A stretch of DNA of 43,206 nucleotides from Gammaproteobacteria bacterium (GTDB lineage Bacteria; Pseudomonadota; Gammaproteobacteria; Poriferisulfidales; Poriferisulfidaceae), in the NCBI GenBank assembly GCA_026713705.1, contig JAPONY010000032.1, positions 1 through 43,206 on the forward strand, in the 5' to 3' direction. A program made the position numbers and the translations under genes. Positions within the stretch are counted from its first letter, which is position 1; each line of letters begins with the position of its first letter. The notes below the pieces were generated by a model, which saw only the letters and a program-made list of their open reading frames with translations, had not been told where the DNA came from and searched no databases. This document shows, one piece after another, positions 22,000 through 37,413 of this stretch.

Positions 22000-22074
22000 A
22001 GGCAGACGACCGCTCCCAGAGCGGCGGACTCTTCCCTCAAATTATAGATGGAGGCAAGGCCCTGCCGGTATAAT
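22000..22074. promoter_or_regulatory. Divergent promoter region between ubiJ and the stator operon
   Basis: Two perfect TATAAT boxes point outward: one on the minus strand (22046-22041), about 42 bases before the ubiJ ATG, and one on the plus strand (22069-22074). Neither has a convincing -35. The plus-strand box overlaps the ATG at 22073, so if it is real the first operon gene must start at a later ATG (22085 or 22091). A hairpin CCGCTC-CCA-GAGCGG (22010-22024) would lie in the ubiJ leader. Confidence 0.4.
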
Positions 22075-23740
22075 GCGTAAAATCATGTTCATGCACACGC
22101 GATTGCTTTTGCTGGGGTTGCTGGCATCGCTTGGCAGCACTGGCTACGCGGCAGATTCACCGTTCCTTTCGGGTTCTGATCCCGGGCTGCAGGTCGCCGT
22201 TAGGGTGATTGCGGACGAACCGAAAGAATCAAACCCGGCCGACGACGAATCTGGGGCGGTTGTCCGCCCGAAATTGCCTCCCGCCGACTCTGAGGCGGAA
22301 GATCGGGAAACCGCCGAAAAACCAGAAGAAAGCGCCGATTCTACGAGCGTTTCCGCCGAAACTTCCTCGGTGACGAGCCTCCTTGATTGGCTACGGATGC
22401 TGCTGGAACCTGCAAAGGACCCGGAACCTGCCGGGCAAGAATCAACCGATGAATCAAAAGAAGCCTCCGTTCTTCCCGACGAGACCGGAGATGAGAGTCG
22501 CGAGCCTGGCGGGCCACGGGGCAAGGAGACAGTCTCCGGAAAAGCAGGCTCCGAAACCGAAGCGGAATCAGGCCCCCAGGTTTCCGAGCGGGAAACCGAG
22601 GATGAATCAAGAGAAGCGTCCACTCCTGCGGAAGAATCAGCGAGCGAAGGCGAACAACCGCCCGGGCCTTCTCACGCCTCGCCCGCATCCCCGCCGGAAG
22701 AGAAGTTTCTTGACCGGTTAAGCATTCTGTCCGAGGCCAATGAGAATCCCAAGTCTGCTGGCCAGACACCGGCCCGCGAATCGGAAGAAGCTTCCGCTGC
22801 TCCGGGAGAAGCCGGAGACAAGAGCGATCTCCCATCTGGACACGCCGATGGGAAAACCGACTCCAACGAACCCGCTCTCGCACAAGAGACCGGAAAGGAT
22901 GCCAAGCCTGCCGGGAAGCCCGCTGCCGACGGGGCGGCGAAAGCAACCATGTCTTCCGCGGAAACCGGGGACGGGGCCAGCCGGCCCGCCGGGCGAGTGG
23001 AGAAAAAGACTGCCTCCGACGGAGCCAGTACCGCACAAAAAACCGGAAAAGTTCCCGGCACTGTCGGGCGAGGGTCTGCTGGCGAACCGAAAAGCGCTTC
23101 CATTCCTTCCGGCAATGCCGGGAGAACGCCGGTTCCCGACATGTCCGGCATAGCCGAAAAACCCGGAGAAGCCCCCAGGCTTGCGGAGGAGGCGCCTTCC
23201 GGCGAACCTGAAGGGGATTCTGTTTCTCCGGGAGAAGCCGGGTATGAGGGCGGCCACCCCACCGTGCAGATGCCGGGAATGCCCGGCCTCGGCCAACTGG
23301 GTGCCATTGATGCGGCCATCGGAGAACCCGGTCTTGCAGGACAAGCCAGCCAGGGAGAAACGCGCGAAATGATACTCTCTCGCGCTCAGGGTGTGCTGAA
23401 CCGGGTGGATCAAATTCTGCTCGACGCCCGCACCCGCGCTCGTCAGGAACGGGAGGGGCAAGGTGACAGCGGTGGGGTAATGTTGGAAAATGACTCGCCG
23501 ACAGGTAGAACGCAAGGCGAGGGCGAGGGGGAGTTTGTCGAGGAAGGGGCCGAACGCGGCGGAATCGCCGAGGGCCAGGTCCCCGGTAATGTTCCGACCG
23601 GCAAGGCTCGCCCGGCTCATGGCTACGAGGAGGACGATGACATCGTGGCCCGGCAGGTCTGTGATCTGGCGGAACGGGAAAAGGACCCCGAAGTCCGCAA
23701 GCAACTGGAGAAAAAATGCAAAAGCCTGAAAAAAGGATAG
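22073..23740 (+). CDS. Exported acidic low-complexity protein, first gene of stator operon
   Basis: The product (555 residues from ATG 22073) begins with a signal peptide (LLLLGLLASLGSTGYA). Residues of about 40-420 are dominated by Glu, Ser, Pro, Ala, Gly and Lys in loose repeated modules of the type ESxEAS...PGEAGD, so this part is likely disordered and strongly acidic. A short helical stretch (REMILSRAQGVLNRVDQILLDARTRARQE) follows, and the C-terminus carries DDDIVARQVCDLAEREKDPEVRKQLEKKC, a compact helical motif I have seen as DIVARQ...E.D...R.KL in other gammaproteobacterial proteins. The exact start is uncertain because TATAAT overlaps the ATG. It overlaps the next gene by 25 bases. I assign no function beyond a periplasmic linker or scaffold, which is inference. 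Confidence 0.75.
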   Translation: MRKIMFMHTRLLLLGLLASLGSTGYAADSPFLSGSDPGLQVAVRVIADEPKESNPADDESGAVVRPKLPPADSEAEDRETAEKPEESADSTSVSAETSSVTSLLDWLRMLLEPAKDPEPAGQESTDESKEASVLPDETGDESREPGGPRGKETVSGKAGSETEAESGPQVSERETEDESREASTPAEESASEGEQPPGPSHASPASPPEEKFLDRLSILSEANENPKSAGQTPARESEEASAAPGEAGDKSDLPSGHADGKTDSNEPALAQETGKDAKPAGKPAADGAAKATMSSAETGDGASRPAGRVEKKTASDGASTAQKTGKVPGTVGRGSAGEPKSASIPSGNAGRTPVPDMSGIAEKPGEAPRLAEEAPSGEPEGDSVSPGEAGYEGGHPTVQMPGMPGLGQLGAIDAAIGEPGLAGQASQGETREMILSRAQGVLNRVDQILLDARTRARQEREGQGDSGGVMLENDSPTGRTQGEGEGEFVEEGAERGGIAEGQVPGNVPTGKARPAHGYEEDDDIVARQVCDLAEREKDPEVRKQLEKKCKSLKKG

Positions 23741-24894
23741 CCCCGCTGGTCTTGCTGCTGGCCTTGGCCGGCGGGTGCCAGATGGGGGGCGGCTACGGAG
23801 CTCTGCTTGGCGACCGGTCGGAAGAGTCGGCCGGCGAACCGGTGCCGGAAGAGTGGCATCTGGATGCCGGCATCGTCCAGTTCAAGGGGGCGGTCGACGA
23901 GGACGAGGTGGCCGAAGGGGAAGTGTTCCCTCAAGTTCGGAAAGCAGAAACCCTGTACTTCCCCCAGCAACTGCGCCAAGCGATGCTGCGTGGAGGCGGC
24001 TGGCGGCATGTGTGGGTGATGCCGGAGCGCGCCGTGGTAGACCTGCGCATCGAGGGCGAGATACTAGAGTCGAACGGCTCCGAACTGGAACTGGAAATCC
24101 GCGCCACCGACTCGACCGGCGAACTGTGGCTCGACCGCGTCTACGACCATGAATTCAGCGAAATTGATTACGCGGGCGAAGACCGGGCCCGACCCTTGAA
24201 AGCCTTGTTCGACCGAATTGCGAAAGACCTCTTGGCCGAACGCGACCAGCGGGGTGTGGCGGCCATGAAAGAAGTCCGCGCCGTGGCGGAACTGCGGTTC
24301 GCGAAAGAATTTGCGCCGCAGGCGTTTGAACGCTATGTCGAGACGCGGGGAGACCGCATGCGCCTGGTGTCGCTGCCGGCCGAGGAAGACACGTTGTACC
24401 AGTTGGTGCTGCAGATCAAGGAACGCGACGATCTCTTCATCGAGACCCTGCAGCCATACTCGGAAGGGTTTGCGGAAAAAATTGACACCTCGTACCGTGA
24501 CTGGGCCCGACAAAGCTACTACGAGCGCCGTGCGCATGACGAGAATGTCGCGTCCAGCGTGGCACAAGGGCTCTTGAGTGCGCTGGCCATCATCGGCGGG
24601 GTTGTTGTGGCTGCCGATTCGGGCTCCACCCCGCAGACGCGGCAGCTCGGCCTGATACTGGCGGGGGGCGGTGCCGCAGGTGCCTATGATGCCTATCAGG
24701 ACTACGAGGCGACGGAAATCCACGAGGCCGCACTCAGGGAGCTCGGACAATCGCTTAATCTGGAGGTGGAGCCCCAAGTCGTGCAAGTGGAAAACCAGAC
24801 GCGCACACTTACCGGATCGATCGAAGACCAGTACCAGCAGTGGCACGGAATCCTGAACGAAGTCTACCTGTCGGAACGCGGCGGCCTGAACTGA
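23716..24894 (+). CDS. Predicted lipoprotein of stator operon
   Basis: This 392-residue protein starts with a signal peptide ending in a lipobox, LAGGC, near residue 21, so it is a predicted lipoprotein. The middle (about 60-190) has beta-strand-like sequence with a VVDLRIEGEILESNGSELELEIRATDSTGELWLDRVYD segment resembling outer-membrane assembly-type lipoproteins. Later there is a Gly/Ala-rich hydrophobic stretch (SSVAQGLLSALAIIGGVVVAAD and LILAGGGAAGAYDAY, about 280-325) that could be membrane-active. No named family is recognised with confidence. It overlaps the genes on both sides. Confidence 0.8.
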   Translation: MQKPEKRIAPLVLLLALAGGCQMGGGYGALLGDRSEESAGEPVPEEWHLDAGIVQFKGAVDEDEVAEGEVFPQVRKAETLYFPQQLRQAMLRGGGWRHVWVMPERAVVDLRIEGEILESNGSELELEIRATDSTGELWLDRVYDHEFSEIDYAGEDRARPLKALFDRIAKDLLAERDQRGVAAMKEVRAVAELRFAKEFAPQAFERYVETRGDRMRLVSLPAEEDTLYQLVLQIKERDDLFIETLQPYSEGFAEKIDTSYRDWARQSYYERRAHDENVASSVAQGLLSALAIIGGVVVAADSGSTPQTRQLGLILAGGGAAGAYDAYQDYEATEIHEAALRELGQSLNLEVEPQVVQVENQTRTLTGSIEDQYQQWHGILNEVYLSERGGLN

Positions 24895-25619
24895 TCCCGG
24901 TTGCACTGGCGCTGGCGGCGGGATTGGCCGCAGGAACCGCCGCAGCCGAGAGCCTTCAGGAGCGGGCGCTTCGCTCGATGCTCGATGCGGACTGGGCGCA
25001 GGCGGCAAAACTGTGGGCGCAGGTGGACGGGCAGCGCGCCCGGGACTATCTGCAGCAGGCACGGGCGGAACTCCAGTTCCAACAGACCCGGGCCCTGTTG
25101 AGTGAAGCCATAGCGGCACAACGGCAAGAGGACTGGCAGGCGGCGGACACGGCCTATCTCAAGGCGCTGGCCGTCTCCCCGCATCTGAAGGCGGCCCACC
25201 AAGGCCGCGGGCAGGTCGCCCTGTACATCAAAGCGCACCGGCGGCTTGACGAGTTAAAACTGCCGGACGGCTTGTACGACAAGGTGATTCGAGCCCGGGC
25301 GAAAGAGTGGCTCGCCTTCGTCAAAGAAAAGAAACTCAATGACCGGAAGATTACCAAGACCCGCACGGATCTTGCCGCCGCCCTCAAGCTGGCGCAAGCC
25401 CCGGTCTCCCTGGTCCTGACTTCGGACAACCAGTCCGACATCGAAATCTATGGTGTCGGAAAACTCGGCCGACTTGAGCGCCAGACCCTGCAATTGGTGC
25501 CCGGCGACTATATCGTCGTCGCCAGCCGGCCCGGATACCGGGATGCACGCGCGACATTGAAAGTGCGCCCCGGCAAGCCCACCACCCTTGACATCCGGTG
25601 CACGGAGTCGATCCAGTGA
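24840..25619 (+). CDS. Exported TPR/PEGA-like protein
   Basis: The 259-residue product from GTG 24840 has a signal-like segment (LIPVALALAAGLAAGTAAAES). Residues of about 35-135 look like helical TPR-type repeats (DADWAQAAKLWAQV; QRQEDWQAADTAYLKALAVSPHLKAA). The C-terminal third (about 185-250) is a PEGA-like beta domain with LVPGDYIVVASRPGYRDARATLKVRPG. The GTG lies 55 bases inside the preceding gene, and a later CTG at 24891, overlapping that gene's TGA, would give a more normal signal peptide; the start is therefore uncertain. The stop overlaps the next gene by four bases. Confidence 0.75.
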   Translation: MARNPERSLPVGTRRPELIPVALALAAGLAAGTAAAESLQERALRSMLDADWAQAAKLWAQVDGQRARDYLQQARAELQFQQTRALLSEAIAAQRQEDWQAADTAYLKALAVSPHLKAAHQGRGQVALYIKAHRRLDELKLPDGLYDKVIRARAKEWLAFVKEKKLNDRKITKTRTDLAAALKLAQAPVSLVLTSDNQSDIEIYGVGKLGRLERQTLQLVPGDYIVVASRPGYRDARATLKVRPGKPTTLDIRCTESIQ

Positions 25620-27433
25620 TTCTTGACCACGAGCCGGTTCAGGCCCGTCCCTACCAGCCTCCCGAACGGAAGAGACGCCGGGACCGATCGTCGCCGCCCC
25701 GTTTTCGGGGGGCGGGACTGGTGGTTTTTCTCCTGGTGCTGCTGACGGCCGGCGCCTGGTACGCCACGGAGCAGGCACAGTTCATCAACTTCGAGACCGC
25801 TCCCGCAGAGGCCGCGGTGCATATCGAAAGCCCACACGTGATGGTGGGCGGCCAGGCTTTGCTCTGGCGGGGCCGGCATGCCGCGAACGTGGCGGCAGAG
25901 GGTTATCGCTCCCGGCAGGTGGAATTCGAGGCGGGCGGGGACGCACCCCGCACCGTGCAGGTGACCCTGGAACCCCTCCCGGGCAAACTCCGGATCTCTA
26001 CGACACCCGAAACCGAGGGAGAAGTCCGGGTGGACGGCGAACGCGCCGGAAGGATCGGCGAAACACTGGAAGATCTTTCTCCGGGCCGTCATGTCGTGCA
26101 GGTCAGCGTGGAAGGCTTCGAGAGGCACTGGCAGACGGTGGAAATCGAGGGGTACGGGCGACTGACCGAGATCGAGATACCACTCAAGAAAGTCGCAAAG
26201 CCCGCCTTGCTCACGATTTCCAGTACGCCGGAGGCCGCGGACATATTGGTTGATGGCACCTGGCGGGGGCGCACCCCGAAGCAGGTCACGCTGACGCCGG
26301 GCACCCAGGTGGAGGTCGCTCTGCTGCTCCCCGGCCATACCCCGAACCGTCAAACCTTGAAGCTGAAACCCGGCCGACAAAGCCACGCAGCCCCTTTGGC
26401 CCCCCGCACCGGCACCCTTGAACTGTGGCCGACCCCGGCCAACGCGACGGTTCGCATTGACGGGCGGGTGGAACTCCGTCGCCAGTTGCGGCTGCCGCAG
26501 CAGGCGCACACCATCGAAGTCTCCGCGCCGGGCTACATATCGAAGAAGTATGTCGTGGTGCCGCACCCCGATGCGCCGAAGCAACTTTTCGCAGTCCTGC
26601 AATCACAGGCAAAAGTCGAACATTCCCGGCGCCAGAAGCACGAGCAGGGTCTTGGATTGATCTTCGTTGAGTTCCGCCCTCGCGAATCGTTCGAGGTCAC
26701 CACAACACGCCGCCGCATCCCGGTGCGCCTGACGCGGCCGTTCGCGATCATGGACCGGGAGGTTACCAACGCCCTGTACCAACGCTATCAGTTCGGACAT
26801 GACTCCGGAGAGGTCTTCGGCAAGCGCCTGGATCGGCCAAGCCAACCGGTCGTACGGATCAGCTGGACGGACGCGGCGCTCTTCGCGAACTGGATGAGCG
26901 AACAGGCGGGCGTCCCGCCGTTCTACCGGGGGCGCGACGGACGGGTCGAGGGATTCGACGCGAACGCGACCGGGTACCGCCTGCCGAGCGAGGCCGAGTG
27001 GGTCTGGCTGACCCGCTCCGAAAAGCGGTACGCCTGGGGAGATTTCATGCCGCCTCCGAATCGCTTCGGCAATCTGGCGGATGCTTCCGCCGCCGACATC
27101 GTACAGCCCGTTCTAAAAGGGTATAACGATCGGCATGCCGTCAGTGCCGATGCCGGAAGCTTTCCGCCCTCAGCCCGGGGGTTGTATGATTTGCCGGGCA
27201 ACGTAGCGGAATGGATGCACGACGTGTTTCTCAATAAACTGCGGATCTCGGCACGCCCGGAAGCGGAGCGGATCAATCCGCTGGGTGAAGCCAGCGGCCG
27301 ATACTATGTCATCCGGGGCTTCGGCTGGCGCGACAGTGGGCGCAAGGAGTTGAGCTTGAGCAACCGCCGCTACGACCGCGACCCCAAAGACGATGTGGGA
27401 TTCCGGCTGGCCTACTACCTGGATTCACCGTGA
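25616..27433 (+). CDS. Membrane-anchored PEGA-repeat protein with FGE/SUMF1-like domain
   Basis: From GTG 25616 (GTGA overlap with the previous stop) the product is 605 residues. A basic, Pro-rich cytoplasmic tail (about 1-32) precedes one membrane helix (about 33-50). Four PEGA-like beta repeats follow (about 55-320), with phrases such as ISSTPEAADILVDGTWRG and LPQQAHTIEVSAPGY. The C-terminal domain (about 345-600) is of the formylglycine-generating-enzyme/EgtB/PvdO fold: MDREVTNALYQRY, VRISWTDAALFANWM, YRLPSEAEWVWL, GLYDLPGNVAEWM, RGFGWRD and VGFRLA. The cysteines of catalytic FGE near the RGG motif are absent, so a binding role is more likely than catalysis. It is probably periplasmic and inner-membrane anchored. 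Confidence 0.88.
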   Translation: MILDHEPVQARPYQPPERKRRRDRSSPPRFRGAGLVVFLLVLLTAGAWYATEQAQFINFETAPAEAAVHIESPHVMVGGQALLWRGRHAANVAAEGYRSRQVEFEAGGDAPRTVQVTLEPLPGKLRISTTPETEGEVRVDGERAGRIGETLEDLSPGRHVVQVSVEGFERHWQTVEIEGYGRLTEIEIPLKKVAKPALLTISSTPEAADILVDGTWRGRTPKQVTLTPGTQVEVALLLPGHTPNRQTLKLKPGRQSHAAPLAPRTGTLELWPTPANATVRIDGRVELRRQLRLPQQAHTIEVSAPGYISKKYVVVPHPDAPKQLFAVLQSQAKVEHSRRQKHEQGLGLIFVEFRPRESFEVTTTRRRIPVRLTRPFAIMDREVTNALYQRYQFGHDSGEVFGKRLDRPSQPVVRISWTDAALFANWMSEQAGVPPFYRGRDGRVEGFDANATGYRLPSEAEWVWLTRSEKRYAWGDFMPPPNRFGNLADASAADIVQPVLKGYNDRHAVSADAGSFPPSARGLYDLPGNVAEWMHDVFLNKLRISARPEAERINPLGEASGRYYVIRGFGWRDSGRKELSLSNRRYDRDPKDDVGFRLAYYLDSP

Positions 27434-27654
27434 GACGGCTCTGGCTCATGCCCCTTTTCGCGGTCGCGGCCCTGGCGTGGGCCGAAGAGCCCCCTGCGCC
27501 ACAGGCGGGAGAAGACGAGGAGGACCGGGAGGTGATCGAGGTCCTGACCGAAGAGGACCTCAAGCAGGAAATCCCGTCGATCACGCTCAAGCAACTGACG
27601 CCGAAGGAAACCATTTCCCTCGACGAAGCCGTGGACATGCCCCGTGACATCTAG
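27430..27654 (+). CDS. Small exported acidic protein
   Basis: This 74-residue product from GTG 27430 (GTGA overlap) starts with a signal peptide (RRLWLMPLFAVAALAWA-EEP). The remainder is acidic (GEDEEDREVIEVLTEEDLKQE) and ends SLDEAVDMPRDI. It has no known family. Its tight overlap with genes on both sides supports it being real. It may be a small periplasmic partner of the stator complex; that is inference. Confidence 0.65.
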   Translation: MRRLWLMPLFAVAALAWAEEPPAPQAGEDEEDREVIEVLTEEDLKQEIPSITLKQLTPKETISLDEAVDMPRDI

Positions 27655-28525
27655 GTGGACGACTCTGGCCGGAAACTGGCGCGAACACGAGGTGTTCTGG
27701 CAATTGCTGGCGTTGGCACTGTCCTTCGTGGTGGTGCATGCAGCCTATGAACTGGTGGTGCGGCCGGTCGCCTACGAGGAGCTGCAACGCCAGGCCGTCG
27801 CCGAGGAGCAGGCTGAAATCGCATCGCCGACGCTTAGTGCGCGGGCCGCCGTCGTCATCAAGGACTACGAGCAGGAAGCCTGTTTTGTCGCCCTGTTCTG
27901 GGCACTCGCCATCATGTGGATGAAACTGCTGAAACTTCGCTTCGCGCACAGGCTGCTGAACCAGCGTGGCCGACAAGGCGAAGAGAGTTTTCTGGAAACC
28001 CAGGAAACCGATCTGGTCCTGCCGCTGGCGCAAGACCGGGCACGCTTCACCGATGTGCGCGAGCATGTGCGAATGCAAGGCTATGGCAGCACCGCACTGT
28101 ACCGGGCCGCCGATGCCTGTCTGGATCGCTTCTTCACCACGCATTCCGTGTCGGATGCCACCGCGGCCATGAAGGCCAGTTGCGAGATGGAGTCGGACCG
28201 GCAGGACACCGAACTGGCATTGGTCCGCTATCTGACCTGGGCCATCCCGTCACTCGGATTCATCGGGACAGTGCGCGGAATCGGCGCGGCTTTGGGACAG
28301 GCCGAGGAAGCCACACGCGGCAACATCGGCCCGGTGACGGAAAGCCTGGGAGTGGCGTTCAACTCGACTTTCGTGGCCCTGTTGATCAGCCTGTTCATCA
28401 TGCTGCTGCTGCATAAACTCCAGGAAGCCCAGGAATCGCTGGTGCTGGATGCCCAGGAACATTGCCAGCACCACTTGCTGCGTTACCTGCGGGAACGGAC
28501 GCGGACGGATGAGCCTGCTCCTTAG
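27644..28525 (+). CDS. MotA/TolQ/ExbB-type proton channel protein
   Basis: The 293-residue product is the ion-channel subunit type used in flagellar, Tol and Ton energy transduction. Hydrophobic segments lie at about 17-38, 79-97, 192-216 and 234-257. The last two contain the signature: LTWAIPSLGFIGTVRGIGAAL (the PxLGxxGTVxGI motif, Thr 209) and VTESLGVAFNSTFVALLISLF (Thr 242 in the channel helix). An extra N-terminal helix and a periplasmic loop of about 40 residues distinguish it from minimal ExbB. The GTG start at 27644 overlaps the preceding gene by 11 bases. It neighbours two ExbD-like genes and so is the channel of a PMF-driven complex. Confidence 0.93.
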   Translation: MTSRWTTLAGNWREHEVFWQLLALALSFVVVHAAYELVVRPVAYEELQRQAVAEEQAEIASPTLSARAAVVIKDYEQEACFVALFWALAIMWMKLLKLRFAHRLLNQRGRQGEESFLETQETDLVLPLAQDRARFTDVREHVRMQGYGSTALYRAADACLDRFFTTHSVSDATAAMKASCEMESDRQDTELALVRYLTWAIPSLGFIGTVRGIGAALGQAEEATRGNIGPVTESLGVAFNSTFVALLISLFIMLLLHKLQEAQESLVLDAQEHCQHHLLRYLRERTRTDEPAP

Positions 28526-29420
28526 GATCGACGGCTACGCGCTGGCACAGCCCGGCAGTCCCGACTGGCGAGCCGAATGGTGTTCGGCTCGCCGGGTCTC
28601 AAGAGACAACTGGCGGTTTGGAAAAGATTCGAGTGAACGGCTGCAACGCCGACACGACGACGACGAAAACAACGAATACCTGGAAGCACTGGAACCGGGA
28701 GAGGGCCAAGGTACGTCGAATCTCGACCTTGCGTACATGCAGCTGCGAGAATTCCTGCCGGAAGGAGAAGGTCCGATCGACCTTCTGGTGAGCGGGGGAA
28801 TCGACCGGCTGCGACTCGAATATCTGCTGGGCGTACTGGAAGCCTTGGGCTACGCGCCCCGCAACATATTCCCGACCGCGCTGTTGCCCGCCCGGAATCT
28901 CGAACCTGGGCGCTACGGCATCATTGAACTCGGGCGCAGCCGAAGCTGGATCAGCATGGTTGACGTCCAGCCGGGGCAGGCACGGCTGGAATCGGTCCGG
29001 GAATACGGAGATTTCGGGTTCTATCACCTCTTCACCCAGTGGGTCGAGAATGCAGCGGAAGCTTTTGCTGCCCAGCATCGCTTCGACATCCACCGCAATC
29101 TCGCGACAAATCGCGGGCAGTTGTTCGAACAAATGTGCCGGGGCTTTGCCGGGAAGTCCGGACAGATCCGGCTCAACCTGGATTCCCGGCTCGTGATACT
29201 GGACGAAAAGGTCTTCCGGGCCCGCTGGCCGAAGCCTGCCCTCGACACGGAGGGACTGGAACTTCTGCTGCTGCCCCCGCTGCCACAGGTACTGCCACTG
29301 CCGGAACAGGGGCTAGGCTTTCCTCTCTGCGCCAACCCCACACCCCAGGCTGTTTCCGATCTGGACGCCACCGCGCCGGAAGACGGACAGGCCCACCGCT
29401 GCGTGGCCCTTTCCTGCTGA
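28509..29420 (+). CDS. Actin/Hsp70-like ATPase-fold protein of stator operon
   Basis: This 303-residue, apparently cytoplasmic protein starts MSLLLRIDGYAL at ATG 28509, 17 bases inside the previous gene. I read it as an actin/Hsp70-fold protein: residues of about 70-125 (SNLDLAYMQLREFL, then DLLVSGGIDRLRLEYLLGVLEALGY) and about 135-200 (GRYGIIELGRSRSWISMVDV, then YGDFGFYHLFTQWVENAAEAF and RFDIHRN) follow the order DLA...vP/g...LLG...DiG...G...RFD seen in such families. The first phosphate-binding loop looks eroded, so ATP hydrolysis is uncertain. The C-terminal 60 residues are Pro/Leu-rich and unlike the rest. No other family fits better. Confidence 0.7.
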   Translation: MSLLLRIDGYALAQPGSPDWRAEWCSARRVSRDNWRFGKDSSERLQRRHDDDENNEYLEALEPGEGQGTSNLDLAYMQLREFLPEGEGPIDLLVSGGIDRLRLEYLLGVLEALGYAPRNIFPTALLPARNLEPGRYGIIELGRSRSWISMVDVQPGQARLESVREYGDFGFYHLFTQWVENAAEAFAAQHRFDIHRNLATNRGQLFEQMCRGFAGKSGQIRLNLDSRLVILDEKVFRARWPKPALDTEGLELLLLPPLPQVLPLPEQGLGFPLCANPTPQAVSDLDATAPEDGQAHRCVALSC

Positions 29421-30464
29421 ATGTCCAGACGCCGTCGCAACCGTTTCCTGAACCCGTTCGGCCTGGCCTTCCTGGACGTCATGTCCTGCGGGCTGGGGGC
29501 TGCGGTTCTGCTGTTCCTGATCATCGACCACAACCTGACCGAACTGGCGCAGGCATCGGAAAGCGGCGAAGGAGACCTGCAACTGCTGGAGCAATCCATC
29601 CAGGAACAGGAGGAACTGATCGCCGGGCATCAGCGCCAGGTGCGGCAGTTGAGGCGCGAACTGCAAAGCCTGGCGCAGCAGCGCGTGGCCGCCATGACCA
29701 CTCAGGCCGAACTCCGCGCCCGCCGACCGCAGGCGTCCGACACGGTTCGGCTGGAAAAGGAGTTGCGCGAGCAGAAGCAAAAACTTCAAGAGGCAAAGAA
29801 AAGCAAGCAGTTGAGGGCGACGGAGGGAGAAGGCCAGCGTCAGTACGTGGCTGGTTTTCGGGTCGAGGGACGCCGCATCCTGATCCTGCTGGATCGCTCG
29901 GCCAGCATGCAGGACGCACGCATCGCCTCGATCATCCGCAACAAGTTTCTTCCGAAAAAGTACCAGATGGAGAGCTTCAAGTGGCGCTGGGCCCGCTCCA
30001 TCTTCGGGTGGGTTCTCGCGCACCTGCCTCAAGACGCGCAATACCAGGTCTGGGGGTTTAACGTAAAAGCAGCACCGGTGCTGAAGAAGAGCGGGTGGCT
30101 TCTGGCGAAAGACGAGAAGCGGATGGAAGAGGTGATCACGGCGGTACAGGACTGGGTCCCCTCGGGAGGCACCCGCCTGGACACGGTCCTTGCGAAGGTC
30201 GCCCAGATGAAGCCCAGGCCGGATGCGGTGTATCTGATCACGGACGGCCTCCCGACACAGGGAAAATCCTGGTTCAAGAAGAACCGGGTCAGCCCGGCCC
30301 AGCGCATGAAATTCTTCCAGGCGGCGACAAAGGGAATCGTGGGCCCGCCGTTCAACATCGTTCTGCTTCCGCTTGAGGGCGATCCGGCAGCGGCCGGAGC
30401 CTACTGGGGATTCGCCATGCAAACGAACGGGCAATTCTTGGCCCCGGCCGAGGACTGGCCGTGA
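29421..30464 (+). CDS. ExbD/MotB-like TM plus coiled coil plus VWA domain protein (1)
   Basis: The 347-residue product has an Arg-rich cytoplasmic tail (SRRRRNR), then a membrane helix starting FLDVMSCGLGAAVLLFLI (about 17-35) with Asp 19 at its head, the position of the proton-carrying Asp of ExbD, TolR and MotB. A coiled coil rich in Gln/Glu/Arg spans about 45-130. The C-terminal VWA domain starts at about 150 and has a full metal-ion site: DRSAS (Asp 158), Thr 251 in SGGTRLDT and Asp 275 in LITDGLP. The start directly abuts the preceding stop, and the stop overlaps the next gene by four bases. It is probably the periplasmic effector arm of the proton channel. Confidence 0.9.
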   Translation: MSRRRRNRFLNPFGLAFLDVMSCGLGAAVLLFLIIDHNLTELAQASESGEGDLQLLEQSIQEQEELIAGHQRQVRQLRRELQSLAQQRVAAMTTQAELRARRPQASDTVRLEKELREQKQKLQEAKKSKQLRATEGEGQRQYVAGFRVEGRRILILLDRSASMQDARIASIIRNKFLPKKYQMESFKWRWARSIFGWVLAHLPQDAQYQVWGFNVKAAPVLKKSGWLLAKDEKRMEEVITAVQDWVPSGGTRLDTVLAKVAQMKPRPDAVYLITDGLPTQGKSWFKKNRVSPAQRMKFFQAATKGIVGPPFNIVLLPLEGDPAAAGAYWGFAMQTNGQFLAPAEDWP

Positions 30465-31489
30465 GACGCGTCCGCCGGCAGGCTGACAACCACCTGTCGT
30501 TCCTCGACGTGGTCAGTTGCGGGTTCGGAGCCATGGTGCTACTGATCCTGATCACCAAGAACACCGTGGGCGAACCGGTCGAGGACTTGAGGTCCCAGAT
30601 CGAGACGCTGCAGGAGCAACTCGCGCGCGTGATGCAGGTTCAGACCGGCCTGGCTTCCGAACGCCTCAAAGAACAGGCCCGGGTGCGCACCCAGAGGGAA
30701 AAACTTCAGGAAGACCGGAAGGCCGTGGAGGAGGTGAAACAGGCGAACGCCGGCGCCAAGGCGCAAGCCCTGATCGAAGCAAACCTGAAAACCGCGCTGC
30801 AAAGCCTCAACGAAGAAATGCGGCGGCTGAACCTGACTCCGTCCAAGCCCGACGTGATCGGCGGAATCCCGGCCGACAGCGAATACATCATTTTCATTGT
30901 GGACACGTCCGGCAGCATGAAGCGGTTCGCCTGGGAAGCCGCCAAACAGCAACTGGTGGCCCTGCTGGACGCCTACCCGAAAGTGCGCGGGATCCAAGTC
31001 ATGAACGACATGGGTTCGTACATGTTCAGCGGTTATCGGGGACGTTGGATTCCGGACACGCCGGCACGGAGGAAGGTCCTTCTGCAACGTTTCGATTCCT
31101 GGCACTCCTACAGCAACTCAAGCCCGGTCGAGGGGATATTGGAAGCGATCAAGCGGTTTCGCATGAAATCCGACAAGATCAGCCTTTACATTTTCGGCGA
31201 CGAGTACACCGGCGAATCGATCCAAGAGGTCATCGACACGGTGGACGACCTCAACCATCAAGACGGCAAGCGGCAGGTCCGCATTCATGCGGTCGGGTTC
31301 TTCACCCGGACGCAGATCGAGAAGATCGATCCCGAGTACGCCGACACCACCAGCCGCTTCGCGGGATTGATGCGGGAGCTGACGCGGCGGAACGGCGGGA
31401 CTTTTCTGGGGGTTACGGTGGATGAATCCTCGGAGAGAAGCGCCAAGCGTGGACTGTCAAAGCCCGCCATCATCCTGCCCGGCGGGTAA
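30461..31489 (+). CDS. ExbD/MotB-like TM plus coiled coil plus VWA domain protein (2)
   Basis: This 342-residue paralogue of the preceding protein starts at GTG 30461 (GTGA). It has a basic tail (RRVRRQ), a membrane helix beginning FLDVVSCGFGAMVLLILI with Asp 16, a coiled coil (about 38-120, including EDLRSQIETLQEQLARV) and a VWA domain (about 140-330). The metal-ion site has DTSGS (Asp 148), a Ser-Pro loop (SNSSPVEG) in place of the usual Thr, and Asp 247 in IFGDEYTG. With its neighbour it could form a heterodimer in the pentameric channel, as ExbD dimers do. It ends the operon. Confidence 0.9.
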   Translation: MRRVRRQADNHLSFLDVVSCGFGAMVLLILITKNTVGEPVEDLRSQIETLQEQLARVMQVQTGLASERLKEQARVRTQREKLQEDRKAVEEVKQANAGAKAQALIEANLKTALQSLNEEMRRLNLTPSKPDVIGGIPADSEYIIFIVDTSGSMKRFAWEAAKQQLVALLDAYPKVRGIQVMNDMGSYMFSGYRGRWIPDTPARRKVLLQRFDSWHSYSNSSPVEGILEAIKRFRMKSDKISLYIFGDEYTGESIQEVIDTVDDLNHQDGKRQVRIHAVGFFTRTQIEKIDPEYADTTSRFAGLMRELTRRNGGTFLGVTVDESSERSAKRGLSKPAIILPGG

Positions 31490-31616: not shown

Positions 31617-32441
31617 GTGGACGCTGTTGGTTTGCCGGGTTGGCTCCGAGCTCTTCGGAGGGCAGAAATTACCGATCGCGTACACACAGATCCTCGCTCT
31701 GAGGGGAACTCACTGCTCGGCATGCAGGCAGACGAGGCACAGAGGGCCATAGACTTCGGGCAAGCGAACTTCGCTGAAGCGCGCGGCAGCCTGTCATCTG
31801 ATGATTTGGTCCTACTGTACGCACACCTGAACCAGTTGGGCCACATCGAAGAACTTGTAGAAGCGTTTCGTCAGTACTTTAATCATTCCAGCCCTCCCTG
31901 TCCGATTGTCTTGGACATCGGTTGCGGTCCGTTCACTGGCGGACTCGCACTTGCGGCGACACTCACGGATTCGCGTTTCGATTACATTGGAGTTGACGCA
32001 TCCGAAGCAATGCGCCGTCTTGGTGAACGCTTAGCGTCCTCTGCTCTAATTCCAGGCGAAGTGACCCGGCTATGGGCACCCACCTTAGATGCTGTGGCAT
32101 GGCCACATCCACCAGGCTGGCGAGAGGTGATTGTGATCGTCTCATATCTGTTTGCAAGTCCAACCCTAGACAGCGAGGCACTGTTCCACAATCTTATTGC
32201 ATTGCTGGACCGGCTGGGGCGCGGGGGAGTTACTTTGCTATACACGAACGCGACGCGCGAAACAGCAAATCGCGCGTACCCGGCATTTCGGGAAAACCTG
32301 TGTGCAACCGACTTTCGCGTGGTCAAAGACGCCACGGGAGAAATCGTTGTCAAACGACGAAACAGATCTACGCAACGCCCGTTGCGGTATGCCCTGTTTC
32401 GGCGTGACCGGCGCGAAGAGTTGTGTCTCGGGAGAAAATAA
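31617..32441 (+). CDS. SAM-dependent methyltransferase, first gene of AT-rich cassette
   Basis: The 274-residue product is a class I SAM-dependent methyltransferase. Motif I is VLDIGCGPFTGGLAL near residue 98-112, followed by an acidic loop YIGVDASEAM (motif II) and a hydrophobic EVIVIVSYLFASP strand (motif IV region). No DNA-methyltransferase NPPY/DPPY motif is seen, so the target (protein, RNA, small molecule) is open. The start is GTG 31617, with AGAGG about nine bases upstream. It precedes an SF1 helicase gene by one base and is lower in GC than the flanking stator operon. Confidence 0.8.
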   Translation: MDAVGLPGWLRALRRAEITDRVHTDPRSEGNSLLGMQADEAQRAIDFGQANFAEARGSLSSDDLVLLYAHLNQLGHIEELVEAFRQYFNHSSPPCPIVLDIGCGPFTGGLALAATLTDSRFDYIGVDASEAMRRLGERLASSALIPGEVTRLWAPTLDAVAWPHPPGWREVIVIVSYLFASPTLDSEALFHNLIALLDRLGRGGVTLLYTNATRETANRAYPAFRENLCATDFRVVKDATGEIVVKRRNRSTQRPLRYALFRRDRREELCLGRK

Positions 32442-32442
32442 C

Positions 32443-33531
32443 GTGCGACTGCCGACATACGATGAGGTTGCTCGCGTAGAGGAACAGCTCAACGTCTATG
32501 AGGCTCCGTTCAACGAATCTCTTTTCGTCGTGGGGCCGCCTGGCTCTGGAAAAACTGTTCTGGCAATTCATCGCGCTCAGATGATGGCAAGTACGGACAC
32601 GACTGTAGTATTTGTGACCTATAATCGAATGCTCCGACGGCTTACCGCGTTGCTGGCGGAAAGGCAGATTCAAGCGAAGACGATGCACAAATTCATGAGT
32701 GACCATTATCGCGCGCAAACCCATTGTAATCCGCCGGCGAGCGCACCCTATTCCTACGATTGGGACACGATATCTGCCAAGCTGGAACAACTTCGCATCG
32801 GCCCAGATTCGATTCATATGGTCATTGACGAAGGGCAGGATTTGCCACAGCCGTTTTTTCGCTACGTTCGCAAGTTTGTGGCTACCCACATCACAGTGTT
32901 TGCCGATGAGAATCAAGCGTTGGACAAAGAGTACAGCAGGCTTACCGATATTAAAAGCGCCGCTGGTCTAGACAACCCGATTCTGCTCAGCGGCAATCAC
33001 CGCAATACACCCGAAATCGCCCACGTCGCCGGACACTTCCACGTCGGCGACATTCCCATGCCGGAAGTGCACCGCAAGCCATCGGGAGAATTACCAAGAA
33101 TCGTATCGTATGGAACCCTGGGAGAGGCAGCAGAGCGAATAAGTAACTGGTACTTGGCAAGGGGCCGTAGGGTCGGGGTGGTTGTGATGAAAAACAACAC
33201 TGGGCTGGCCGTGCAGGAGGCCCTACAGAGTCGCGTGGAAGGACATCGCGTAGACTTCTACAGTAGCGAGATGAAAAACGAGGACAGCATTGATCTTCTC
33301 GGGGCGGGGATTACAGTGTTGAACGCAAAGTCAGTCAAAGGACAAGAGTTCGATACTGTTTTTGTAATGGAGGTCAACCAATTCTTGCAGCCAGCAGACC
33401 ATAGCCAACGTGTGATGTATATGTTATGTTCCCGTGCGCGGGACAATTTGATCCTTATGCATGAGGGGAACCGCTTGCCAGACACACTCCTTGCACAATT
33501 GCCGGGCCGCGACTTTCTTGAGAGACCATGA
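32443..33531 (+). CDS. Compact SF1 (UvrD-like) helicase/ATPase
   Basis: The 362-residue product has Walker A GPPGSGKT (residues 31-38), a VTYNRMLRRL motif Ia region, DEGQD (129-133, motif II), FADENQAL (motif III), LSGNHRNT (motif IV) and a C-terminal LNAKSVKGQEFDTVFV plus MLCSRARDNLIL (motifs V and VI). These define an SF1A UvrD-like ATPase, about half the length of UvrD because the 1B and 2B insertions are missing. I chose GTG 32443, with GGGAG eight bases upstream, two bases after the methyltransferase stop. Its stop overlaps the next gene by four bases. Substrate is unknown. Confidence 0.87.
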   Translation: MRLPTYDEVARVEEQLNVYEAPFNESLFVVGPPGSGKTVLAIHRAQMMASTDTTVVFVTYNRMLRRLTALLAERQIQAKTMHKFMSDHYRAQTHCNPPASAPYSYDWDTISAKLEQLRIGPDSIHMVIDEGQDLPQPFFRYVRKFVATHITVFADENQALDKEYSRLTDIKSAAGLDNPILLSGNHRNTPEIAHVAGHFHVGDIPMPEVHRKPSGELPRIVSYGTLGEAAERISNWYLARGRRVGVVVMKNNTGLAVQEALQSRVEGHRVDFYSSEMKNEDSIDLLGAGITVLNAKSVKGQEFDTVFVMEVNQFLQPADHSQRVMYMLCSRARDNLILMHEGNRLPDTLLAQLPGRDFLERP

Positions 33532-35711
33532 CTACAGCAGAGCTTCCACTGCCAATTCCGGGCGGAGAGAACCACGCGAAGGTCGATAGGTCCGACCGGA
33601 AAAACCCTCTACAGCAACGCGGTGCGAGTGCCAATGAGGGGCGTGCAACGGATTGGCTAGGCCTTGAGACAGACCACAGAAGGCTGTTTGAGGCGGGGCA
33701 GGATGAGTGGCTGCATCCCTGCCCATCGGGATTTGTTTTAGGGCGTGGGTGTTTCGTAGCCGAACCCCATCGGATCGAGAATCGCAATATCGTTGCGGTT
33801 CGACTAGCCTTTGATGAGAAGAAACTGCCACTGTTCCAGAATACGAAGCAAGATATTGTGCCAGTTATAGAAAGCTTATCTAAGCAGGATGATGCACCGG
33901 TTGGAACAAGATGGGTTGCCCCTATTCCTCTGTACGCAGTCATGAGACTGGAAGTCATCTCATCGGAAGAAAAAGCACGTCTTCATGCGATGGCTGGCCA
34001 AATATCAAACGTTTCCCTGCCTGACATAGAAATCACGGTAGGTGCTACCAAGGTATTTCCGGTTCCGACACAGGAATCGACAATCGCTCACCCATCTCAT
34101 GTGGAACTGCCTGAAACTCTGAACGCGGTCCACGGTGCGATGGCAATGGCGGTGTGGGCCGTACCACGTGTTGATCCGTGGATCGATACACTGCAAAGTG
34201 CCTTAAACCTAGATGCGGAAGAAACTACGCGAAAAATTATGGATCTCGACGTACAGTGGCTGCACGTTCCTTGGCTCCATGACCACACCTCCGCTTCCTG
34301 CAATCCCGAGGCGACGTTATGGCGGGCAGCGCTCGCTACGATGCGCAGCCCAAGCACGACAGGCATGTCGCCTGCTCAGGTCGCCGAGATGATCGCCCGA
34401 CACGCATGCAACGAAGGGGCAGGGGAAATGGCAAAAGATTGGCTTGATCACACGCGACGTATAGTCGCGGCAGAAGGGTCATTCTCCCCGGACGCGACTG
34501 GTGCCGGCCTTGCGATACAACTTGTTCTGCTGCGGCCGGAACCGGTAGACTTCAAGGCGTGGAGCAGGGATCTCCCATGGTTGCCCCCTGCGACTTGGTG
34601 GGCTGCATCGGTTCTTTGCGGGTGGCGACACGGATATCGTGCCCTAGACAAGCGGTTTCGGGGAGATGCCGCCTTCCGTGAATTCCTTACCACCCACGCG
34701 CTGAAGGCATCGTGGCCAAGTGACATTAGTAGCTTGCTGCCGACCATGCAACAGGAGAAACTCGAATGGCAGCGAGAGGATGATTGCTTTTCGATGAATT
34801 GGGGCGGGCATCCAATCATCCAGAAACAGTGGCACCCGCGAGGCAAGTGGTACCAAGCCGATTTTGCAGACAAGACAGTCGCGAAATCTGCCCGTGAGAT
34901 TGCTAGCAAGTTGGAGTGGCCGTGCTTAAAACGGCGGATATCTTTGACGGAGACTCGCGTGCCAGTGCGCGGAAAGGGCAACCTCTCGATTGACGTAAAC
35001 CAAGAGTTGATGGTGACGGGGAGAGTTGCGTTATATCTACCGGAGGGGGTTCAAGTGGAGGAGGAGGTCGACCCAGACGAATTTCGTCGAGAATTGGTGC
35101 GTCGAGCTGGCGAAGTGTCCGACCCACCCAAGCGATCCCTGCCACAACCAGTTGACATGGACATCCCTGGCTTGATTTATTGCCCCCATTTTATATCGCG
35201 AGACGAAGAACTTGAGCTAATTGAACGCATCGACAGGGGCGCATGGAGCAAGAGCCTTGCACGTCGTGTGCAACAGTATGGCTGGCGCTACGACTACAGG
35301 CAGCGGAAACTTGACGCAGCAATGCGTCTTGGCGAACTTCCAGACTGGGGTGCTTCGCTGGCTCGGCGACTGGTGGACGAAGGATTGATAGATGCGCCGC
35401 CTGACCAGATGATCGTGAATGAATACCTTGGCGATCAGGGCATCACAAAGCACATTGACCACCCCAGTTTCGCCGAACAGGTTGCAACTATTAGTCTACT
35501 GGAGACATGGGGGATGGTTTTCCGGCTCCGGGACAGAAAGATTGAGAAACCCCTTGAGCATGGCAGTGTCGCAGTATTGACGGGTGAAGCGAGATACGAG
35601 TGGACACATGAGATCCCGAAGCGGAAGTCCGAACCCGGGGGTGAGGGACGTAAGCGTGTCAAACGGGGCCGGCGAGTCTCGCTCACTTTCCGCAAGACCA
35701 AGGTGGCCTGA
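33528..35711 (+). CDS. Large protein with C-terminal AlkB-type 2OG-Fe(II) dioxygenase
   Basis: The 727-residue product begins at ATG 33528 (ATGA overlap). Residues 1 to about 535 match nothing I recognise; they are Trp-rich in places (WLPPATWWAASVLCGWRHGY) and could hold two domains, one near 55-190 and one near 190-530. From about 545 the sequence is an AlkB-family dioxygenase: NEYLGDQGITKHIDH with iron ligands His 642 and Asp 644, WTHEI with His 694, and RRVSLTFRK, where an Arg binds 2-oxoglutarate. AlkB enzymes remove alkyl groups from, or hydroxylate, nucleic acids or proteins. The fusion with a long N-terminal region and the methyltransferase/helicase context are unusual. Confidence 0.82.
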   Translation: MTTAELPLPIPGGENHAKVDRSDRKNPLQQRGASANEGRATDWLGLETDHRRLFEAGQDEWLHPCPSGFVLGRGCFVAEPHRIENRNIVAVRLAFDEKKLPLFQNTKQDIVPVIESLSKQDDAPVGTRWVAPIPLYAVMRLEVISSEEKARLHAMAGQISNVSLPDIEITVGATKVFPVPTQESTIAHPSHVELPETLNAVHGAMAMAVWAVPRVDPWIDTLQSALNLDAEETTRKIMDLDVQWLHVPWLHDHTSASCNPEATLWRAALATMRSPSTTGMSPAQVAEMIARHACNEGAGEMAKDWLDHTRRIVAAEGSFSPDATGAGLAIQLVLLRPEPVDFKAWSRDLPWLPPATWWAASVLCGWRHGYRALDKRFRGDAAFREFLTTHALKASWPSDISSLLPTMQQEKLEWQREDDCFSMNWGGHPIIQKQWHPRGKWYQADFADKTVAKSAREIASKLEWPCLKRRISLTETRVPVRGKGNLSIDVNQELMVTGRVALYLPEGVQVEEEVDPDEFRRELVRRAGEVSDPPKRSLPQPVDMDIPGLIYCPHFISRDEELELIERIDRGAWSKSLARRVQQYGWRYDYRQRKLDAAMRLGELPDWGASLARRLVDEGLIDAPPDQMIVNEYLGDQGITKHIDHPSFAEQVATISLLETWGMVFRLRDRKIEKPLEHGSVAVLTGEARYEWTHEIPKRKSEPGGEGRKRVKRGRRVSLTFRKTKVA

Positions 35712-35717
35712 AACTCT

Positions 35718-36458
35718 CTATGTGACCACGGGGCGGAAATCTTCGCCGCTCATCGGTTCATGCCGGGACCAACACCCGCTCATTTCGATCAGAACACGCT
35801 GACTCAGCGGCGTGGGTTGCGGGTTGACCTTTACCACATGCGCGGAATACGTCGGAGACCCTACCATCGCCGCAACAATCTCCCCCATAAGATACCGTGG
35901 AGCCCAACCAATCGTATGGCGATTCTTCGTCTGAATTTGGACAGCTGGCCGAGCCGCCAAGCCGGTCTGTTCCAAGGCGACATGCAACCCTTCTCCTTTT
36001 TTTAGTTGATCAATCCTCTGAAGAGTTGATGCGCTTGCGTCTTGCAAACCCTGCAACAGAAAGCGACATGTAAAACTTCCGTTTTCATCTTTCTCGATTT
36101 TCGGAAAGACTTCATAAAAATCCGTGACGCGACGACCACCATTTACCGACAAAATTTCGACGGAGTCTGCGCTTTCCGGCAGATCGAGGTGCTCAAGATA
36201 TTGGGCGCGGTCTGCCCTGCCTCTAGCAATGACCCGGTTCCTGAAAATAGCAAAAAGTTCGAGAGATTGATAATCGCCTTTCATGTCCGGAAAATCATAC
36301 AGTGGAGGAAACCCAACTTCTCTGCTCGCCCGTTCTGCGCCGGCCGTGTACCGGAACCGGAACCGAGGCAGATCGGTCTCTACATCCAGCCTTCCAATGG
36401 GAAACCAGTGCCGACGTTCTTTGTCACGCCAACCCAGGTATAAAGTTTGCTCATTCAT
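35718..36458 (-). CDS. HIRAN-like domain protein
   Basis: The 246-residue product starts MNEQTLYLGWRDKERRHWFPIGRL. Its C-terminal half has the pattern of a HIRAN domain, a small DNA-end-binding module: a QRIDQLKKGEGLHVALEQ segment, AVQIQTKNRHTIGWAPRYL, and a final VNPQPTPLSQRVLIEMSG stretch. The N-terminal half (about 1-130) has RFRFRYTAGAERASREVGFPPLYDFPDM, reminiscent of the short HipA N-terminal region. The start overlaps the end of the HipA-like gene by eight bases, so the two are coupled. It converges with the dioxygenase gene with six bases between stops. Confidence 0.65.
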   Translation of the reverse strand: MNEQTLYLGWRDKERRHWFPIGRLDVETDLPRFRFRYTAGAERASREVGFPPLYDFPDMKGDYQSLELFAIFRNRVIARGRADRAQYLEHLDLPESADSVEILSVNGGRRVTDFYEVFPKIEKDENGSFTCRFLLQGLQDASASTLQRIDQLKKGEGLHVALEQTGLAARPAVQIQTKNRHTIGWAPRYLMGEIVAAMVGSPTYSAHVVKVNPQPTPLSQRVLIEMSGCWSRHEPMSGEDFRPVVT

Positions 36459-37344
36459 GTGCCAGCGCCCTCAATTGCTGGAAATTATAAAGGAGCAGAG
36501 CAGCGGCGAACTTGCATGCCGACGGGGTTGCCACACTGATGGGAATGCGGCAAACCATATCTTCGAGAGCGGCCTCGTCTAGATACTGCAACCTGGAAAG
36601 CGCCAGATTGAAGATGTTCGGATAATCCCGGACTCCACGTCTCACCACGTCCAAAGGGCTCAAGCCATGCGGCTCGTCTCCCGACCAATAAACCGCGCCA
36701 CGTCCTTTCTCAGAATAGGTTCCGACACGCCCTTCTGCTAGAAATCTATCGCGCCGCTCGTCCAAAAGCTCACGTCCCAAAGAAGAAGCGTGATCGAATG
36801 AAGGTGCAACAAAACCTTTCCAGCCATCATCGGTTTCCCAGCGCAAAATGCCCCAGTTTTCGTGGTGCCGATCAGTGTTCCCAATCAACGCATCCAAGAC
36901 CAAATATCCTGAAATACATGTTTTCGCATCTTCCGCCACGCCTGCCGAAAAAAAGATAGCGTCCATTGCAGCAAAAATGTTTTTCACAGTATGACTCGAT
37001 TGGTCGAATCTCTTCTTCAGGTCGTAATTCTGGATGAGTTGTTCCAGCAACTGGTTGCCATGATACAGACCTCTTCCTTCACGCACGAAGGATTCTGTTA
37101 CTGAGCCATGCTGTCCTTGAAATTCCGCCAGCTCAACTTTTGCATGTTCAACCCGAAGAACCACTGCAACCTGTTCCGCAACTTTTTCCGCCCAATGCTG
37201 CCCGGTATTCGGCTGAGAGTATTTGAAGAGCCACCGCTGCTCATCTTCTGGATTTTTGTACCAGAACTTTGTCTTGCTTCCCATTCCCTCCGGATCCTGA
37301 ACCCATCCTGGTTCCACGGTGATAATGGGATGAAAATCGGGCAT
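36451..37344 (-). CDS. HipA-like kinase-fold protein
   Basis: The product (297 residues from ATG 37344; an ATG 11 codons upstream at 37377 is also possible) belongs to the HipA/PI-kinase-like fold. Visible elements are WLFKYSQP with a candidate ATP-binding Lys, the catalytic loop ALIGNTDRHHENWGIL with the Asp and Asn, and the metal-binding PSFDHASSLG. HipA-type proteins phosphorylate targets such as a tRNA synthetase in toxin-antitoxin modules. Here the N-terminal HipA domain and the HipB antitoxin are missing; instead a HIRAN-like gene follows with an eight-base overlap. Confidence 0.78.
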   Translation of the reverse strand: MPDFHPIITVEPGWVQDPEGMGSKTKFWYKNPEDEQRWLFKYSQPNTGQHWAEKVAEQVAVVLRVEHAKVELAEFQGQHGSVTESFVREGRGLYHGNQLLEQLIQNYDLKKRFDQSSHTVKNIFAAMDAIFFSAGVAEDAKTCISGYLVLDALIGNTDRHHENWGILRWETDDGWKGFVAPSFDHASSLGRELLDERRDRFLAEGRVGTYSEKGRGAVYWSGDEPHGLSPLDVVRRGVRDYPNIFNLALSRLQYLDEAALEDMVCRIPISVATPSACKFAAALLLYNFQQLRALAHE

Positions 37345-37413
37345 CACGATCACCAAACAATTGTGCTTATTTCGCACGCATGCTCGTCACTCTAGTAGAT
37401 TCGGATACCCTCG

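Follow-up and report, generated by a model that had tools for sequence, protein, structure and literature searches.

A conserved nine-gene cluster predicted to encode a proton-motive-force-driven trans-envelope machine with paired VWA subunits

A run of nine same-strand genes on a gammaproteobacterial contig raises the question of whether it encodes a machine driven by the proton-motive force (PMF) and, if so, on what such a machine would act. Motors of the 5:2 type run on the PMF and drive flagella, the Ton and Tol systems, gliding and type 9 secretion. The stretch analysed here (the window) is 43,206 nucleotides long and comprises one entire contig (JAPONY010000032.1, G000:C32) of a 1.94 Mb genome (GCA_026713705.1). 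An earlier note, made from the sequence of the window, had placed at positions 22073-31489 nine overlapping or abutting genes encoding a MotA/TolQ/ExbB channel, two ExbD/MotB-like subunits with VWA domains, an actin/Hsp70-like protein, a PEGA protein with a formylglycine-generating enzyme (FGE) domain and exported partners, and had set conservation of this neighbourhood as a test. The present analysis recovered nine plus-strand open reading frames (ORFs; P1 to P9) in that interval, neighbours overlapping or abutting at all junctions, with clear Pfam matches for the channel (P6) and the PEGA-FGE protein (P4), an Hsp70-like fold for P7, and an invariant transmembrane (TM) aspartate and a VWA head in both P8 and P9, the latter head divergent. 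The genes co-occur in both samples of relatives examined, and their products are predicted to span the cell from cytoplasm to outer membrane. In our view the best explanation, and a reasonably probable one, is a PMF-driven trans-envelope machine in which P8 and P9 exert force on an outer-membrane lipoprotein assembly.

Conservation of the cluster

A scan for the P9 family using one genome per species across 84,980 species returned at least 458 relatives, the best 80 of which define the named loci considered below; these come from Gammaproteobacteria, Thermodesulfobacteriota, Acidobacteriota and bins labelled Myxococcota. Gene calling skipped genes (e.g. in L072, L078 and L083); presence was established by profile search of stop-to-stop frames and scored anywhere in a locus, solely in loci with enough DNA on the relevant side. 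P8 was found on the same strand as P9 in 74/74 named loci, P6 in 63/63, P7 in 57/64, P4 in 53/53, P3 in 49/50 (the one locus without it being L070) and P2 in 45/45. Full upstream DNA was available for 45 loci, all of which carried P2, P3, P4, P6, P8 and P9, joined by P7 in 43 of them. Gene order was canonical in 69 of the 71 loci with at least five families, the different-looking order of L085 and L090 being put down to frame starts and a contig end.

The profiles were partly built from the same named loci, which match by construction. Because the named loci are close relatives and many were used for the profiles, a second, class-wide sample carries particular weight. In this draw the first P9 alignment had matches at E ≤ 0.001 in 38 of 369 genomes, and in 28 the E-value was below 1e-70; the resulting 27 class loci comprise 25 of these 28 (without the window, G001 and G036) and two further loci of the same class. 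Here P8 was present in 27/27 loci, P6 in 19/20, P4 and P3 each in 18/18, P2 in 15/17 and P7 in 16/22. A family from another class of the phylum, represented by 7 of 13 matches, had P2, P3, P4 and P6 in 6/6 loci and P8 in 7/7. The core of the cluster is P2, P3, P4, P6, P8 and P9, with P5. Relatives of P6 occurred in 5/5 same-genus genomes. Microbulbifer, Bowmanella and Marinibactrum include named strains with the cluster, which should be culturable.

Successive overlaps from P1 to P9 are 25, 55, 22, 4, 11, 17, 0 and 4 bases, values that are approximate as start codons were chosen. The eight genes tested (P2 to P9) are under purifying selection, with dN/dS of 0.06-0.26 against four same-genus genomes and the minimum falling on P9 or P6 in each of the four comparisons. 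The nine-gene cluster is a real, widespread unit whose order is kept across phyla.

Table 1 Genes of the cluster with their positions in the window
Feature	Position	Strand	Basis
P1, acidic low-complexity exported protein, 555 aa	22073..23740	+	ORF; lipobox-like motif in relatives
P2, lipoprotein, FlgT/PelC/TolB-N/CsgG-like domain at residues 43-185	23716..24894	+	alignment, model, Foldseek, VIA-align
P3, exported or membrane-anchored TPR/PEGA-like protein	24840..25619	+	domain scans, aligned relatives
P4, bitopic, one TM (~35-58), PEGA repeats, C-terminal FGE-fold domain, no cysteine	25598..27433	+	
P5, 74-aa acidic exported protein, C-terminal tail MPRDI	27430..27654	+	
P6, MotA/TolQ/ExbB-type channel (A) subunit, invariant Thr209 and Thr242	27644..28525	+	
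P7, Hsp70-type nucleotide-binding-domain fold, degenerate ATP motifs, no TM, without FHA in the window	28509..29420	+	
P8, B subunit 1: TM with Asp19, ~110-residue coiled-coil-like stalk, VWA head	29421..30464	+	
P9, B subunit 2: TM with Asp16, coiled-coil-like stalk, divergent VWA head	30461..31489	+	

The channel and its paired VWA subunits

P6 matched the MotA_ExbB family with 45.5 bits (Pfam cut-off 22.9) and diverges from canonical channels, the three other MotA/ExbB-type proteins of the genome scoring 104-126 bits. Residue conservation was assessed in alignments selected from full-length relatives (36 rows for P6, 40 for P8, 41 for P9 and 52 for P7), and both threonines of P6 listed in Table 1 are invariant in 36/36 rows. 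The genome encodes three PF02472 (ExbD/TolR) genes, each adjoining another ExbB-type gene, all on contigs other than that of the cluster. In 12 further cluster-bearing genomes the 15 kb on either side of the cluster, as far as the contigs reach, contain no PF02472 match, and the nearest, 19 kb away in G387, has its own TolQ-like neighbour. Since PF02472 genes are not near the cluster and are paired with other ExbB-type genes, P6 most likely works with P8 and P9. Two MotA-like genes at L031 8352-10300 and L032 9225-11191 (contigs C41 and C35 of the same genome) have neighbours of their own, namely a MotB-like protein with an OmpA domain and an unclassified protein of 299 aa.

The aspartate near the start of the single N-terminal TM helix is invariant in P8 (40/40 rows) and P9 (41/41 rows). 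In the window the VWA matches of both proteins fall below the Pfam cut-offs (23.8 bits against 27 for P8 and 22.7 against 23.8 for P9), while 38 of the 40 aligned P8 rows match VWA_2 at E ≤ 0.001. The metal-site motif D-x-S-x-S and a later aspartate are present in all aligned rows of both sets, corresponding to D158, S160, S162, T251 and D275 in P8 (Thr251 being kept in 39/40 rows) and to D148, S150, S152 and D247 in P9. The TM aspartate and the metal-site (MIDAS) aspartate are 132-156 residues apart, with coiled-coil matches in between.

Phylogenetic analysis separated the P8 and P9 rows into two clades (support 100/100), and each set takes a single change in every one of the 200 bootstrap trees. 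Each clade contains Pseudomonadota, Thermodesulfobacteriota and Acidobacteriota, so that the pair either predates the split of these phyla or both genes spread together. The two clades and the constant pairing suggest that the moving subunit is likely an obligate heteromeric B subunit of P8 and P9.

Some further features of the two proteins were noted. The columns of a C-terminal Trp-Pro in P8 are invariant in the 40 aligned rows, which gives the cluster a second conserved C-terminal tail beside that of P5. The window, L022 and L036 have a P9 of 342 aa, with a C-terminal extension of about 21 residues relative to the 321 aa of L021, L023, L024, L037 and L038. In L141 and L142 (G332 and G234) the P9 match reads through one in-frame TGA, which may reflect sequencing error, decay or recoding.

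The core of this arrangement is already described in PMC12204202 (Mol Biol Evol 2025, Fig. 4c,d), which reports genes for vWA proteins tethered by a transmembrane helix; these come as heterologous pairs in close linkage with tolQ-like genes and without tolR/exbD. AlphaFold3 models in that paper put the aspartates of the vWA transpore helices (TPH) inside a TolQ-like pentamer; the sets are wide in Proteobacteria, and the paper reports no function for them. The present cluster shares the TolQ-like gene beside a heterologous TM-vWA pair (P9 being a weak VWA), the TM-helix aspartate in all rows of both B subunits, and the lack of tolR/exbD, both in its own genome and in the 12 others. The likeness to the published account (PMC12204202) is one of description, and no Idiomarina record is among the best 80 of the at least 458 P9 relatives. 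The earlier note knew of no described system with this set of genes, which is too strong given this publication; its idea was sound but not new at the core. That main text lacks the terms 'PEGA', 'kinase', 'sulfatase', 'FGE' and 'SUMF1', though flanking genes may appear in its figure or supplement. The main text of PMC12505986 lacks the term 'VWA', and no other paper with this gene set was found by title and start of abstract, in searches that reached few subscription papers and did not extend to bioRxiv preprints. Judging by these literature searches, what is added here comprises the wider conserved gene set, the history of the two paralogues, the tail of P5, the fold of P2, an FGE domain devoid of cysteine, and the variants with kinase or FHA domains. 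If the cluster does encode a motor, it would add a PMF motor whose B subunit consists of two different proteins, paired in every counted locus with enough DNA, and which carries metal-site heads instead of peptidoglycan-binding or TolR domains, together with a specific list of proteins likely to be its outer-membrane partners. Such a list makes the question posed by PMC12204202, the target of a TPH-vWA motor, testable.

Envelope-side and cytoplasmic partners

P2 carries a lipoprotein cysteine (Cys21) followed by Gln at +2, which predicts an outer-membrane location. In its AlphaFold2 model (mean pLDDT 78.8), residues 43-185 aligned by VIA-align with FlgT (Z 11.5, root-mean-square deviation 3.1, 128 aligned residues), PelC (Z 11.1, 2.1, 108) and TolB (Z 10.6, 2.7, 101). 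The alpha/beta fold of this region is shared by FlgT, PelC, CsgG and PqiC (Z 8.8-11.5) at an identity of approximately 9-13%, and such a common fold shows no function. Foldseek returned nothing under 0.001 for P2, PelC being best at 1.0e-3, and the sequence had a single match to solved structures (E 0.063). Several proteins with this type of fold, including FlgT and PelC, form rings, and the PelC structure matched by P2 carries 'dodecamer' in its title. Assignments of P2 to SLATT_1 (14.5 bits, cut-off 26.3) and to NheB (16.7 bits, cut-off 500) were rejected, both scores lying far under the cut-offs. Outside the modelled domain P2 has long helices and, at residues ~278-332, a Gly-rich hydrophobic stretch of low model confidence, possibly a membrane-active hairpin.

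Lipoproteins recur around this part of the cluster. A lipobox-like motif was found in 28/32 full-length relatives of P1, making it a probable lipoprotein in most of them, and its C-terminal tail is similar among relatives as judged by eye. Two further lipoprotein families lie downstream in many relatives, c5 in 56/73 and c7 in 49/70 named loci; neither has a Pfam family at E ≤ 0.1 or an NCBIfam family. Lipobox-like motifs were present in 48/52 P2, 50/56 c5, 42/47 c7 and 26/41 c9 proteins. Whether the residue at +2 is Asp sets the outer-membrane destination of a lipoprotein under the sorting rule. Since none of these 194 motifs, P1 included, has Asp at +2, outer-membrane sorting is predicted for the P1, P2, c5, c7 and c9 relatives. 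An M48 peptidase is encoded downstream in 41/80 named loci (by gene calling, one member having been checked against Pfam), and a TPR protein upstream in many relatives, one of the five scanned (L119) ending in a TonB_C-like domain at 24.5 bits against a cut-off of 24.6.

P4 has strong matches to FGE-sulfatase (104.4 bits, cut-off 23.3) and PEGA (69.8 bits, cut-off 20.8). Formylglycine-generating enzymes depend on a catalytic cysteine pair. The window protein has no cysteine, and the FGE part of 32 P4 rows has just two columns with at least five cysteines (26 and 6 rows). P4 as an active FGE was ruled out because it has no cysteine.

P5 was counted by its tail, as gene calling overlooked it in many loci. 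The tail, [FY]-P-x-D-I followed by the stop codon, lies in the stretch upstream of the channel gene in 85/90 loci, and a six-frame search found exactly one [FY]PxDI-stop match in 87/90 loci and more than one in none. The channel gene lies elsewhere in L147 and L152, and these two loci supply the matches outside that stretch. No match was found in three loci, all from Porisulfidus, in which the tail is MPSDI, the window having MPRDI. That a small exported protein keeps its free C terminus conserved suggests that this end is a docking tail.

The window P7 matches no Pfam family. A profile of its family matches Hsp70 chains (best E 2.3e-4) and picks up some FHA-containing chains weakly. In Foldseek the AlphaFold2 model of P7 (mean pLDDT 71.5) matched Hsp70 nucleotide-binding domains with E 1e-8 and probability 1.00, at TM-scores of 0.38-0.53 by query length among the 50 rows shown. 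On these models the actin/Hsp70-like assignment holds as a fold. Hsp70/actin-fold ATPases have a phosphate motif such as DLGGGT. The corresponding stretch, located by the Hsp70 profile match, is IIELGRSRS in the window protein, and HLE(L/I)QLHQ predominates across 52 rows; because the stretch is degenerate, P7 would be a non-ATPase scaffold, presumably cytoplasmic given that it has no TM segment. A distant sister cluster (L029, 9078-18952) encodes an FHA protein, a MotA-like protein, a single TM-VWA protein and a kinase-PEGA protein, which suggests a wider class of kinase-linked VWA motors. Control by phosphorylation may be an old option that was lost in most members.

Proposed mechanism, alternatives and genomic setting

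We propose that P6 probably builds a ring-shaped channel, which by analogy would have five copies and enclose two transpore helices, one from P8 and one from P9, making the whole a 5:2-type PMF motor. Proton flow past the membrane aspartates would turn or tug the pair, whose stalks would carry two different VWA heads through the periplasm, where the heads may grip P4, P3 and P2 through their metal sites. P2 may form a ring as FlgT or PelC do. P7, with the kinase domain of P3 and the FHA domain of P7 in a few lineages, would couple the machine to cytoplasmic control. The likeliest task would be to exert force on an assembly of outer-membrane lipoproteins so as to place, move or renew components of the envelope or surface, since lipoproteins, an M48 protease and a TPR protein are added in the longer cluster of many relatives. 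In part this resembles Tol-Pal, P6 being TolQ-like (TIGR02796, 28.9 bits, cut-off 221) and P2 having a TolB-N-like domain and a predicted outer-membrane location; in contrast to Tol-Pal, none of the nine proteins matches TolR (PF02472), Pal (PF00691) or the TolB propeller, and the VWA pair would replace TolR.

Several observations weigh against this proposal. The spread of the cluster is patchy, with P6 relatives in 11/55 of the nearest genomes and in 0/12 genomes of one sister family in the order. One family has the channel gene downstream of P9 (L147, L152) or, in L150, neither a channel gene nor P2 that could be found. The P6 family profile matched no solved structure at E ≤ 0.01, and the P8 and P9 profiles matched coiled coils and no VWA chains among solved structures. 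Just 5/41 P9 rows match VWA_2 (E ≤ 0.001) and 4/41 match VWA; because so few rows match these Pfam families, P9 is treated as a divergent VWA protein. P7 is missing from 7/64 named, 6/22 class and 7/7 other-class loci and is for this reason not essential. Its FHA domain, C-terminal, occurs at E ≤ 0.001 in 3/52 rows, and a Ser/Thr kinase domain occurs in 4/50 aligned P3 rows, so that both are rare. The c5 and c7 lipoproteins are found in 10/23 and 10/22 class loci and in 0/5 and 0/4 other-class loci, and are absent beside the cluster in three Porisulfidus loci; the proposed task is weakened because c5 and c7, on which it is based, are accessory in the fairer sample.

The same motor might instead serve surface export or movement as in the type 9 secretion system (T9SS) and gliding, P4 and P2 forming an FGE-fold ring or track, a reading we consider unlikely. 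GldK has an FGE-like fold, and the best NCBIfam match of P4 is GldK (PorK/GldK), a T9SS ring protein, albeit at 62.5 bits, far under the cut-off of 350 and in a database that may contain few FGE models. The general likeness to GldKLMN (PorKLMN) lies in a PMF motor with a periplasmic receiver: the PorLM motor energises the PorKN ring, with GldK within a moving track (PMC12635249), and P2 resembles the ring formers named above. The cluster differs in that its B subunits end in VWA heads and P4 has a predicted TM anchor rather than being an outer-membrane lipoprotein, and P4 lacks cysteine for a disulfide of the GldK type described in PMC12635249. No GldL or GldM row was returned by NCBIfam for the eight window proteins scanned (all but P5), nor was any known translocon family found among the cluster proteins scanned. 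A bolder reading holds that Gammaproteobacteria, Thermodesulfobacteriota, Acidobacteriota and another class of Pseudomonadota share a distinct and ancient rotary machine spanning the envelope, in which an obligately heterodimeric VWA rotor would drive an FGE/PEGA receiver anchored in the membrane and a FlgT/PelC-like ring of outer-membrane lipoproteins, with the tiny FPxDI protein as plug, adaptor or assembly factor, and which would move or export surface components as the functional equivalent of the T9SS/gliding motor outside Bacteroidota. We regard this as doubtful, if a shade less so than the ring-or-track reading.

A gated ion channel or sensor, in which ligand binding by the VWA heads would be coupled to signalling by the channel via the Hsp70-like/FHA protein and a kinase, is less probable again. 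It would account for the kinase and FHA domains on P3 and P7 and for the combination of FHA, MotA-like, TM-VWA and kinase-PEGA proteins in the sister cluster; most members, however, have neither a kinase nor a recognisable FHA domain, P7 is absent in entire lineages, and the invariant Asp and Thr residues form the set known from PMF motors. At the far end of the scale are two readings that we think highly improbable. The earlier note had left open a role in defence, and an anti-phage system such as Zorya does pair a MotA-like A subunit (ZorA) with a MotB-like B subunit (ZorB), but P8 and P9 lack an OmpA-type domain, PADLOC gave no Zorya row at E ≤ 0.01 for seven window proteins (four weak matches, 12.7-15.3 bits), the conserved core lacks a nuclease or helicase, and the cluster's presence in all five same-genus genomes and the lack of a plasmid match for P9 also speak against it; a defence role thus finds no support. 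Equally remote is the idea that P6 works with an unlinked ExbD/TolR while the VWA proteins do something separate: the genome does have three ExbD genes, yet each adjoins its own ExbB-type gene, and P9 is accompanied by P8 in 74/74 and 27/27 loci and by P6 in 63/63 and 19/20. The PMF-driven machine acting on outer-membrane lipoproteins is retained as the preferred explanation.

In its genomic setting the cluster is preceded, 73 bases upstream, by the end of a divergent ORF. No structured RNA was found in the window at gathering score and no tRNA by ARAGORN, and a mobile-element origin was rejected after P9 found no match by tblastn in 72,556 plasmid records. Just downstream, at 31617-35711, are three plus-strand ORFs (methyltransferase-like, AAA/UvrD-like helicase and 2OG-Fe(II) oxygenase); nothing resembling them occupies the same place in the same-genus loci L021-L024, as judged by ORF starts, and the trio is a probable lineage-specific insertion. 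Beyond it, a gene with a HipA_C domain (36451-37377, minus strand) adjoins a 246-aa gene (35718-36458), a relative of which is present in L021.

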